Of a stretch of 42,189 nt of DNA, positions 20,552 to 42,189 are shown piece by piece; position 1 is the first letter of the stretch; every line of letters begins with the position of its first letter. Where the stretch lies: NCBI RefSeq assembly GCF_000420525.1, contig NZ_ATVC01000017.1, forward strand, positions 1 through 42,189, in the 5' to 3' direction. Source of the DNA: Aquaspirillum serpens DSM 68. GTDB lineage: Bacteria; Pseudomonadota; Gammaproteobacteria; Burkholderiales; Aquaspirillaceae. The notes under the pieces are model-generated. The model saw only the letters and a program-made list of their open reading frames with translations, was not told the origin of the DNA and did not search any database. Made by a program: the position numbers and the translations under genes.

Positions 20552-21640
20552 TTATCCTGCAATGCGTGGGGTGGAAACCTGCACATCGCCACATTGGGCA
20601 CGATGGCGCAAGGCATGATCGATTAACACCAAGGCCAGCATTGCCTCGGCAATCGGTGTTGCACGCAAACCAACACAAGGATCGTGGCGGCCGTGTGTTT
20701 CCATCAAAATCGGATTGCCTTGTTTATCAATCGAACGGCGAGGTTGAGCAATACTCGAGGTAGGCTTAATCGCCATCGACACTTCAATCGCCTGCCCAGT
20801 GGAAAGGCCACCCAAAATACCGCCGGCGTGGTTACTTAAAAAACCATCGGGGGTCAGTTCGTCGCCATGTTCGCTACCGCGTTGGGTCACCGAGGCAAAC
20901 CCCGCGCCAATTTCCACCCCTTTGACAGCGTTAATGCTCATCATGGCGTAGGCAATATCAGCATCTAAACGATCAAACACTGGCTCACCCCATCCCACCG
21001 GCACCCCTTCCGCCACCACCCGCAAACACGCACCAATAGAATCTTGCGATTTACGGATGCTATCCATATACGCTTCCAGCTCAGGGACTTTGCTTTGGTC
21101 AGCGGCAAAGAAAGGATTATTCACCTCGTCCCACGAGACAAAAGGAATCTCAATGTCGCCGATTTGCGTGATATGACCACGAATCACGATACCGTATTGC
21201 TCGGCTAACCATTTCTTCGCAATCGCCCCCGCCGCCACTCGCACCGCCGTTTCCCGCGCCGAAGACCGCCCACCACCGCGAGGGTCGCGAATGCCGTATT
21301 TGTGCCAGTAGGTGTAATCAGCATGTCCGGGGCGGAAGGTATCAGCGATATTGCCATAGTCTTTGCTGCGTTGGTCGGTGTTACGAATCAGCAGGGCAAT
21401 CGGGGTGCCGGTGGTTTTTCCTTCGTACACGCCGGATAAAATTTCTACGGTATCGGGTTCACGGCGTTGTGTGACATGGCGACTGGTGCCGGGTTTGCGG
21501 CGGTCGAGTTCGTGTTGAATATCCGCTTCGGACAAAGCCATGCCGGGAGGACAACCATCAACAACGCAACCAATCGCAGGGCCATGCGATTCGCCAAAAC
21601 TGGTGACTGTGAACAATAAACCAAAGGTATTACCAGACAT
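20552..21640 (-). CDS. aroC: chorismate synthase
   Basis: A 362-aa FMN-dependent lyase forming chorismate from EPSP, the last common step to aromatic amino acids. Signatures are [11 protein letters not shown] near the N-terminus, [26 protein letters not shown] and [10 protein letters not shown]. The start ATG 21640 has GGAAAG 6 nt upstream; the longer frame to 21757 has no family similarity. It leads the aroC-yejB-yejE-yejF run. The 263 bp upstream (21641-21903) show no gene and no clear promoter. Confidence 0.96.
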
Positions 21641-21979
21641 GGGGCACTTTCCGGAAATCAGAGATAGAAGACCGATTCTAACAAAGCCACCGCGACAACG
21701 GGGCAAAGTCCGGTGTGGATTCGAGTTGGGTTCAGGTGGTGGCTGAAGCAAATGCAAAACAGACTGCCTGTGTTAGGATTTATCGACGAAAAATTTTGGA
21801 GTTGTGAGATGGAGTGGGCAATCAGGGTGGTGTTTTTTTGAGATACAACTATTGTATTAACTATCCAAAACAAAAGTCATAACAAATTTAACTTGTAAAA
21901 TCGGTGATTGTGAGATATCTTCTTTTCGACCGTAAATTACTGTTAAAACATATATTACGAATTAGGGTAAATTGCATAA

Positions 21980-22410
21980 ATGAATCAACTCATTCAATCA
22001 ATGTTGAGCTTCAGTTTCTCCAAATCAGGAAATATAATCTTGGATTCTCAAGAAATACTATATTTCAAGAAATACTATATTTTAATCTCGATCAAAAAAA
22101 AGCAGATCATGGATGGGTTTACATCTGGCTTGAGATAAATAAAGATGAAGTCAAGGTGGTTTACGTAGGTAAAGCTGGAAAAACCCTTCAACAACGTTGT
22201 CAAGAACATCGCAGGGGTTTCAAGAATAGCGTTACTGGCAAAGCTCATGCAGAACGTATTCGTGAAGGTATAAAAATGGGTAAGCATTACGAGCTGTGGT
22301 CGAGGAAAGCTCAGGTTACCACGCTTTTTGAAGAGGAAAATATTTCAATGGTTGAAATAGAGGAAAGAGCTTTCATTCAAAAATTCTGTCCTGCTTGGAA
22401 TAAGATTTAA
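21980..22410 (+). pseudogene. GIY-YIG nuclease-like gene, apparently frameshifted by a 17-bp duplication
   Basis: Downstream of 22083 the frame encodes a GIY-YIG-like domain: WVYIW, then VVYVGKAGKTLQQRCQEHRRG (GIY, YIG and catalytic Arg regions), a later EIEERA glutamate and CPAWNK. Its current frame has no upstream ATG; it is open to GTG codons at 21904 and 21910. A frame starting ATG 21980 runs into a 17-bp tandem duplication (22049-22082) and then into a stop. Removing one copy fuses that start to the nuclease frame (SQEILYF then NLDQKKADHGW), giving a 137-aa protein. So the gene is either inactivated or starts at GTG 21904 to make a 168-aa form. It is AT-rich compared with its neighbours, consistent with transfer. 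Specific function unknown. Confidence 0.6.
22049..22082. repeat. 17-bp perfect tandem duplication
   Basis: CAAGAAATACTATATTT occurs twice head-to-tail (22049-22065 and 22066-22082). The unit length is not a multiple of three, so gain or loss of one copy switches the reading frame of the GIY-YIG gene. Confidence 0.95.
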
Positions 22411-22571
22411 CCAAGTACTGTGGTTGGATTGCTGGTTACTTAGCAACCTAACACCAACCCACAACGATAAAATAAATTTAGGCTTTGTAACCTAATCTAC
22501 AAATTGCCACATATTCTCAATTTTCCGCGAAAAGCCGTTGCCAGCGGGATTTCGCCATATTGGGCATCACG

Positions 22572-22604
22572 AAAAAAAGGATGGTTGCACTTTAGCGACC
22601 ATCC
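22572..22604 (-). terminator. rho-independent terminator of the 22613-22975 gene
   Basis: On the plus strand GGATGGTTGC (22579-22588) and GCGACCATCC (22595-22604) pair over 10 bp with one G-T wobble. On the minus strand the stem is followed by seven T residues (22578-22572). It lies 8 nt beyond the stop codon of the small unknown gene. The rest of the 22411-22571 interval holds imperfect inverted repeats but no gene. Confidence 0.85.
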
Positions 22605-22612
22605 CAGTCAAA

Positions 22613-41663: not shown

Positions 41664-41679
41664 AACTTAAGGCAACCTT

Positions 41680-41799
41680 GTAGGGTGGATAAGCGTAGCG
41701 CATCCGCCAGTAGTGTAGGCACCGGTTTTGTGCCCACCATTTTTAATTTGGTTGCTTAATGATTGTTTTGGGTGGATGCACTACGTTTATCCACCCTAC
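41680..41799 (+). repeat. 120-bp palindromic element, copy R3
   Basis: It starts GTAGGGTGGATAAGCG and ends CGTTTATCCACCCTAC. The terminal inverted repeats pair over about 26 bp with mismatches. The inner GGCACCGGTTTTGTGCC forms a second hairpin. Same length as copy R1 at 1-120, opposite orientation. Confidence 0.93.
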
Positions 41800-41875
41800 A
41801 AAGTAAAAATAATTAAATTCGTTGGATTAGGGTGAATTCATTAGGTTTATTCACCTGATTGTTTAAGGCAACCTT

Positions 41876-41995
41876 GTAGGGCGGATAAGCGTAGCGCATC
41901 CGCCAGTAGTGTGGGCACCGATTTTGTGTCCATCATTTTTAATTTGGTTGCTTAATGATTGTTTTGGGTGGATGCACTCCGTTTATCCACCCTAC
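41876..41995 (+). repeat. 120-bp palindromic element, copy R4
   Basis: Same length and ends as R3 (GTAGGGCGGATAAGCG to CGTTTATCCACCCTAC), with a few base changes such as GTGTCC in place of GTGCCC in the inner hairpin. Confidence 0.93.
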
Positions 41996-42072
41996 AAAGT
42001 AAAAATAATTAAATCCGTTGGTTTAGGGTGAATTCATTAGGTTTATTCACCTGATTGTTTAAGGCAACCTTG

Positions 42073-42189
42073 TAGGGCGGATAAGCGTAGCGCATCCGCC
42101 AGTAGTGTGGGCACCAGTTTTGTGCCCATCATTTTTAATTTGGTTGTTCGATGATTGTTTTGGGTGGATGCACTGCATTTATCCACCCT
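42073..42189 (+). repeat. 120-bp palindromic element, copy R5, cut by window end
   Basis: Begins GTAGGGCGGATAAGCG and follows the element to TTATCCACCCT at the last base; the final three bases would lie beyond the window. Confidence 0.92.

Follow-up and report, generated by a model that had tools for sequence, protein, structure and literature searches.

The assembly of Aquaspirillum serpens DSM 68 contains a small nuclease gene whose reading frame changes within a short exact repeat, which raises the question of whether the break exists in the cell or only in the assembly. The locus was studied within a stretch of 42,189 bp (contig NZ_ATVC01000017.1, positions 1 to 42,189, of assembly GCF_000420525.1), and the whole of this stretch is called the window throughout. 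A preliminary description of the window had seen in the repeat either a recent inactivation or a slippage switch. Part of that view stands, as the duplication splits the gene and the homologues match a one-copy arrangement, but it presumes a real event, yet like duplications recur across the assembly. The second 17-bp copy is probably an artefact of the draft assembly, with the gene really one-copy and intact.

A reading frame that changes within a repeat

The locus is made up of the following features.

21892 to 22410, plus strand: open frame with the GIY-YIG nuclease; its longest start is GTG 21904 (168 aa)
21980 to 22138, plus strand: frame from ATG 21980 (52 aa, stop at 22138); ahead of the repeat it encodes the N-terminus that the nuclease family conserves
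22048 to 22064, plus strand: first copy of the 17-bp unit TCAAGAAATACTATATT (Tandem Repeats Finder and sequence)
22065 to 22082, plus strand: second copy of the unit and one extra matching base (Tandem Repeats Finder; 18 consecutive matches at period 17)
22094 to 22101, plus strand: run of eight A, which with the next G includes A_AAA_AAG (22096-22102) in the ATG-21980 frame
22111 to 22404, plus strand: GIY-YIG nuclease domain (phrog_1111; PF01541 at 24.4 bits, cut-off 22.6)

Tandem Repeats Finder detects adjoining, identical copies of TCAAGAAATACTATATT at 22048-22082 (period 17, 2.1 copies, 100% matches). This confirms the tandem duplication first described at 22049-22082, as the repeat is identical and is only phased one base earlier. 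The other exact tandems in the window with a period of 7-80 bp are of 7, 8 and 9 bp, leaving the 17-bp pair as the only one above 9 bp, and chance alone would not be expected to produce an exact pair of this length within 42 kb. Its length was rightly said to be no multiple of three (17 is 2 modulo 3), and the arithmetic of the proposed one-copy fusion holds as well, since 431 minus 17 leaves 414 bases, that is 137 aa and a stop. The nuclease frame does lack an upstream ATG, and GTG 21904 and GTG 21910 are the only codons of the ATG, GTG or TTG type between 21892 and 22150. A frame-breaking tandem duplication inside an ORF, one of the marks of phase variation through spontaneous sequence duplication, is found here.

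The frame that carries the N-terminus

Seven full-length homologues of the nuclease were aligned, the weak hits L034 and L035 being left out, and these have about 30-50 residues with a common pattern ahead of a VYLW-like strand. In all seven this is the N-terminal pattern of the ATG-21980 frame, as the preliminary description had predicted. With a model of the homologues' N-termini, the 29-residue piece from the ATG-21980 frame scores 7.0 bits, a value equalled by 2 of the 843 shuffles that were scored (1000 made). The leader from GTG 21904 scores -1.3 bits with the same model, which is equalled by 571 of 794 scored shuffles (1000 made); the part of the GTG frame upstream of the repeat does not resemble the homologues, and their N-terminus does not match this frame.

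When the window was divided into its 1606 stop-to-stop segments and these were compared with the full homologue model, the nuclease frame, which is otherwise intact, ranked first with 124.3 bits, and the ATG-21980 frame ranked second with 6.4 bits (E = 0.73, weak alone). The ATG-21980 segment is also second of 1606 with the N-terminal model (6.1 bits), the top segment (6.2 bits) lying elsewhere in the window. In the homologue model, positions 6-33 are covered by the ATG-21980 frame over window 21989-22078, and positions 32-142 by the nuclease frame, beginning at 22069. The passage from one frame to the other thus lies within the repeat. It is the duplication that cuts the nuclease frame off from its conserved N-terminus, and the homologues agree with the one-copy arrangement.

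The AlphaFold model of one of the homologues, L036, has a mean pLDDT of 75.5 and a pTM of 0.73, and its N-terminus consists of a helix (residues 3-12) and a strand (residues 16-24), with block pLDDT values of 92, 90 and 75 over residues 1-30. The pattern of this helix-strand element before the GIY strand is present in the ATG-21980 frame, which counts provided that both frames belong to a single gene. Because the N-terminus is a high-confidence helix and strand in the homologue model, a nuclease deprived of both would be unlikely to fold normally.

Identity and distribution of the nuclease

The gene is predicted to encode a T4 EndoII-like GIY-YIG nuclease. The EndoII-like profile phrog_1111 matches across the nuclease domain (residues 70-167 of the nuclease frame, 37.4 bits, E = 4e-9). 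This profile also gave matches in 34 of 369 class genomes, 29 of the 34 lying in frames of 604-660 aa, which we take for UvrC, and only L002 was used from this search.

Few homologues were found. Queries of 168 aa or 108 aa gave none beyond the gene itself in 60 relatives or 369 class genomes, and none in plasmids, phages, or the first scans of genome contigs and viral contigs. A search of the phylum matched 4 of 398 genomes, namely the genome itself, L033 (52% identity over 100 residues), and the weak hits L034 and L035. An alignment of L033 with the window gene, used in further scans, led to L036 (Alteromonadaceae bacterium M269), L037 (uncultured Burkholderiales) and the viral contigs L038-L040.

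The surroundings of two homologues deserve mention in their own right. The nearest, L033, lies beside an attC-like hairpin (L033:768-826; DNA fold z = -4.89, a stability that none of 200 shuffles reached) and upstream of repeats noticed on visual inspection (L033:1867-2507), which suggests an integron gene cassette. An integron cassette at the window locus was rejected on the fold of 22408-22480 alone (z = -1.14). In L036, the homologue is followed by proteins of 104 aa and 1105 aa (L036:3974-8240), an arrangement reminiscent of defence loci; the larger protein presumably has trypsin-like and NTPase-like stretches.

Genomic setting

The gene next to the nuclease is well conserved in the family.

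20552 to 21640, minus strand: neighbouring gene, presumably aroC; identity of 88-92% in all five family relatives, one of which matches over just half of the gene

The nuclease frame at 21892-22410 has a G+C content of 34.9%, compared to 50.2% in a 400-kb sample in which 6 of 760 stretches of that size are as low. The nuclease query found no counterpart in five family relatives, positions 21641-22612 had no blastn match among the nine loci compared, and none of the ORFs listed upstream of the counterpart of the 20552-21640 gene in four relatives is the window nuclease. As far as seen, the gene appears to be lineage-specific, and it was probably acquired. As it is low in G+C and was not found in five family relatives, it is also probably dispensable. 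Elsewhere in the window, at 41667-42189, a 196-bp unit is repeated 2.7 times (95% matches) and reaches the very end of the contig; this array may be the reason why the contig ends there.

Similar duplications across the assembly

The sample taken from the strain's own assembly (G000) comprised 1,242,189 bp with the window included, and some counts were made on the first 842 kb. Family relatives were used as controls, with 400 kb each of G001, G002 and G005, and 171,739 bp of G003 (17,891 N). Exact tandem duplications with a period of 15-80 bp number 15 in 1.24 Mb of the own assembly, and 12 of these are non-triplet. Against these 12, none was found in about 1.35 Mb of the controls, which differ from the strain in G+C (61-64% in the three measured, against 50%) and also in their assembly history. 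A test for equal rates gives P = 1.4e-4 for 12 against 0, or about 2.5e-4 (calculated by hand) without the window. Triplet duplications of at least 15 bp do occur in the controls: G005 has four (15, 15, 15 and 18 bp), and one more, together with one in G001, is added if internally periodic units are kept. In the own assembly the 15 periods are distributed as 3, 6 and 6 modulo 3, without frame preference.

For periods of 15-50 bp, the first 842 kb of the own assembly contain nine exact non-triplet pairs, none with one or two mismatches, and two with at least three, and the corresponding figures for three controls are 0, 0 and 16. As no non-triplet pair has one or two mismatches, there is no trail of older, decayed duplications. 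Shorter tandems do not share in the excess. Non-triplet tandems of 10-14 bp number 7 in 1.24 Mb, compared to 10 in 1.37 Mb of controls (6, 1 and 3 in the 400 kb each of G005, G001 and G002, and 0 in G003). Similarly, those of 7-9 bp are not commoner (83 in 1.24 Mb compared to 55, 48 and 43 per 400 kb and 12 in 172 kb), and frame-linking tandems of 7-60 bp show no excess (23 in 842 kb compared to 22, 22 and 16 per 400 kb), a count that overlooked the window's own site. A separate array on C2 (L053:204-304) repeats the 7-bp unit AGACACG about 14 times in an open frame of 79 aa, and is a candidate for slippage variation of a more classical kind than the two-copy repeats.

The genes and sites affected elsewhere in the own assembly are as follows.

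cheA: 17-bp duplication, both halves recognised by family models
fliG: 26-bp duplication, both halves recognised by family models
fliF: 31-bp duplication, both halves recognised by family models
siaC: 16-bp duplication, both halves recognised by family models
argD/astC-type gene: 25-bp duplication, gene body recognised by family model
C33:11310-11410: double 25-bp site with Na_H_Exchanger on one side and TrkA_N on the other (Pfam), in a gene that we take to be KefB-like
22-bp duplication: Pyr_redox_2/Thioredoxin_3 domains after the site (Pfam), presumably in an AhpF-like gene
44-bp duplication: in a gene that we read as a transposase
Remaining duplications: 15 and 21 bp, in frame; 24, 20 and 17 bp, without gene assignment
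Aldehyde dehydrogenase gene: split by an 8-bp exact tandem
cheR: split by a 10-bp exact tandem
Coordinates of long-duplication sites outside the window: C4:24557, C11:224, C11:1431, C2:32298, C14:26164 and C33:11310

A homology census of the own assembly found four candidate frameshift junctions, two of which lie on exact tandems (8 and 10 bp). The other two have no tandem within 60 bp; one is an apparent antisense hit, and the other, near position 4305 of L056, lies in a stretch where every frame is interrupted by stops. The same census gave 3, 1 and 2 candidate junctions in G001, G002 and G005; three of these six were read by eye, and a check of all six by script showed no tandem of at least 7 bp within 60 bp.

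Motility genes are prominent among those affected. With 38 flagellar and chemotaxis proteins of E. coli as queries, 18 besides Tar were matched in 842 kb, and 4 of the 18 are split, all at tandem duplications. The long duplications in cheA, fliF and fliG make up 3 of the 12 found in the first 842 kb, where 1.85% of the sequence (15.5 kb) belongs to the 18 motility genes (P = 0.0012; if the adjacent fliF and fliG are treated as a single hit, P = 0.017). No obviously essential gene was seen broken in the sampled assembly. CheB was rejected as a further split gene; its C-terminal half alone was matched, but this reads as an uninterrupted stand-alone domain. On C36 (L171:12619-12641), an 11-bp tandem lies at the edge of a response-regulator frame that lacks its first residues, which is perhaps another split gene.

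Origin of the duplication

An assembly artefact would have arisen if two overlapping pieces were set end to end with their 17-bp overlap left unmerged. In that case the organism would have no frameshift, only a normal, uninterrupted one-copy gene for an EndoII-like GIY-YIG nuclease whose N-terminus is encoded from ATG 21980. Several findings favour such a join. The break in homology lies within the repeat, and the nuclease frame is otherwise undamaged. Decayed copies are lacking, the periods ignore the frame and end homology is close to chance. Two of the four census junctions in the own assembly sit on exact tandems, and none of the six in the controls does. The foremost point is the site at C33:11310-11410 (L168), where a doubled 25-bp unit is followed directly by another 25-bp unit that is doubled as well, giving the order AABB. 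This is the product expected of joining ..A, AB and B.. without merging the overlaps; in the cell it would be hard to get, as either two events that happened to coincide or the repair of several staggered nicks would be needed. The duplications are also in excess near the sampled contig starts, with limits set post hoc: of the 15, three are no more than 300 bp from a start (a zone making up 1.06% of the sample, P = 5e-4) and five no more than 1,500 bp (5.3% of the sample, P = 8e-4). Background tandems of 8-9 bp have no such excess, being near contig starts in 0 of 54 cases within 300 bp (0.57 expected) and in 1 of 54 within 500 bp (0.96 expected).

Recurrence in unrelated genes, together with these features of unmerged overlaps, makes an artefact likelier than a real mutation or a switch, and the join probably arose in assembly and not in the cell. 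Several points speak against an artefact. Overlaps of any length would predict an excess of tandems of 10-14 bp, and there is none. The count of frame-linking tandems did not separate the assemblies, no obviously essential gene was seen broken, the limits at contig starts are post hoc, the controls differ in G+C and assembly history, and the Vibrio fischeri expansions compared below are far longer. Motility genes are split too often for random joins, which fits relaxed selection on real mutations, and owing to this excess the artefact was weighted lower and a real inactivation higher than they would otherwise have been. The duplications in fliF and fliG count on both sides of the question.

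The main rival to an artefact is a real and recent tandem duplication that inactivated a horizontally acquired nuclease, in a strain that has many such duplications in dispensable genes, motility genes above all; we regard this as rather unlikely. The protein from ATG 21980 would stop after 52 residues, and the nuclease domain would be left without a proper start. The excess in motility genes, at either of the P values above, is in line with such a history, as is an AT-rich gene that was not found in five family relatives and is probably dispensable. Duplications are moreover an ordinary class of loss-of-function mutation, and are reported for 8% of 93 spontaneous nfxB mutations in wild-type Pseudomonas aeruginosa PAO1, where deletions and duplications together span 2-302 bp and are mostly below 15 bp (PMC3676378). 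Three tandem duplications of 26-116 bp are likewise reported for Xenorhabdus lrp (PMC6786866). However, single-base indels account for 19% of the nfxB spectrum compared to 8% for duplications (PMC3676378), whereas the verified frameshifts in this assembly all lie on tandem duplications. The lack of decayed non-triplet copies and of any frame preference, the AABB site and the excess at contig starts all argue against real inactivation.

Moreover, the examination of polA and Ku revealed no obvious mutator or end-joining cause. End joining by Ku was rejected at 19.6 bits, under the cut-off of 25, and loss of the polA 5'-exonuclease was rejected, that part being fully matched in an open frame of 985 aa. 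Microhomology and hairpins were rejected as a general cause, as 14 of 16 sites have just 0-2 bp of microhomology at their ends, which is near chance, and the inverted-repeat arms of 3 among 16 units surpass 95% of controls (0.8 expected).

A reversible switch, in which one copy would turn the nuclease on and two copies would turn it off in the manner of pneumococcal capsule phase variation, is quite improbable. A direct repeat of 17 bp is able to drop one copy by slippage, and an undamaged nuclease domain would be expected if the gene were still in use. Yet no sign of switching was seen: the one-copy junction has no match in the own assembly, with up to two mismatches allowed, and nothing distinguishes the window duplication from the other 14. 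In their first 250 bases, moreover, six of the seven homologues have no exact tandem of at least 7 bp, and L037 has one of 9 bp that is in frame. Precedent for a switch of this kind is provided by cap3A, cap8E and tts (Waite et al. 2001, 2003, as cited in PMC4243769 and PMC2995930).

It is very improbable that the gene functions in its two-copy form, be it as a longer protein from GTG 21904, whose leader at -1.3 bits is unlike the homologues, or through a -1 slip on A_AAA_AAG at 22096-22102, which leads from the ATG-21980 frame into the nuclease frame and would give the full domain with six extra residues: the heptamer has the right frame and direction and the eight-A run is unique on the plus strand of the window, but A_AAA_AAG is common there (13 times on the plus strand and 4 on the minus strand), three downstream stretches fold without a clear stimulatory structure (z = -1.44, -0.89 and -1.57), and L033 has no A run at the corresponding place. 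With no clear structure and a heptamer so frequent in the window, programmed frameshifting was rejected as the main reading.

Implications

If the duplications are artefacts, false pseudogenes would stand in cheA, cheR, fliF, fliG, siaC and others, and claims of non-motility could be misled by them. The number of exact non-triplet tandem duplications per megabase would then offer an inexpensive test of draft genomes. Should the duplications be real, they would represent an unusual mutation spectrum biased to motility genes, possibly with duplication-based switching. The furthest-reaching version, in which motility, chemotaxis, the biofilm regulator SiaC and the acquired nuclease would all be reversibly inactivated, amounting to genome-wide phase variation without a fixed tract, is one to which we give very little credence.

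Comparison with known systems

The closest known likeness of the nuclease is to T4 EndoII (PDB 2wsh), which the profile of L036-L040 matches over its full length including the N-terminal motif (E = 5.5e-6). EndoII is also the first fold match of the L036 model (E = 7.5e-5, TM 0.67/0.71, prob 1.00), with a TM of 0.62-0.67 by query length and an identity of 20-22%. EndoII is a phage enzyme, whereas the window gene is bacterial and chromosomal, and its activity is predicted only. Hpy188I (PDB 3or3, 3oqg) shares the GIY-YIG fold and comes second after EndoII in the comparison with the L036 model, although weakly (E about 1e-2), and Eco29kI (PF09517) gives a weak Pfam match of 21.3 bits, under the curated cut-off of 30.8 bits. 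Both of these are restriction enzymes, but no methyltransferase partner was spotted by eye among the ORFs of the window.

The pneumococcal capsule genes resemble the locus in that a tandem duplication within an ORF inactivates the gene and could revert by loss of a copy (PMC4243769, PMC2995930). For the capsule, reversible variation is reported in these sources, whereas in the assembly studied here a single state is seen and many unrelated genes are affected.

The likeness to Vibrio fischeri ES114 concerns the assembly itself. In version 1.0 of that genome, 14 artefactual expansions are reported and ascribed to imperfect contig ends that were placed in tandem when they should have been overlapped (Mandel et al. 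2008, PMC2330054), so that there, too, tandem duplication within an assembly is blamed on contig ends. The expansions in V. fischeri are of 318-1264 bp and were confirmed by resequencing (PMC2330054), whereas those described here are of 8-44 bp and are seen in the assembly alone. Interrupted orthologues of essential E. coli genes are proposed by that study as a measure of quality (PMC2330054). Errors were present in 75 of 82 suspect loci, and most of the erroneous loci were frameshifts whose correction fused ORFs (PMC2330054).
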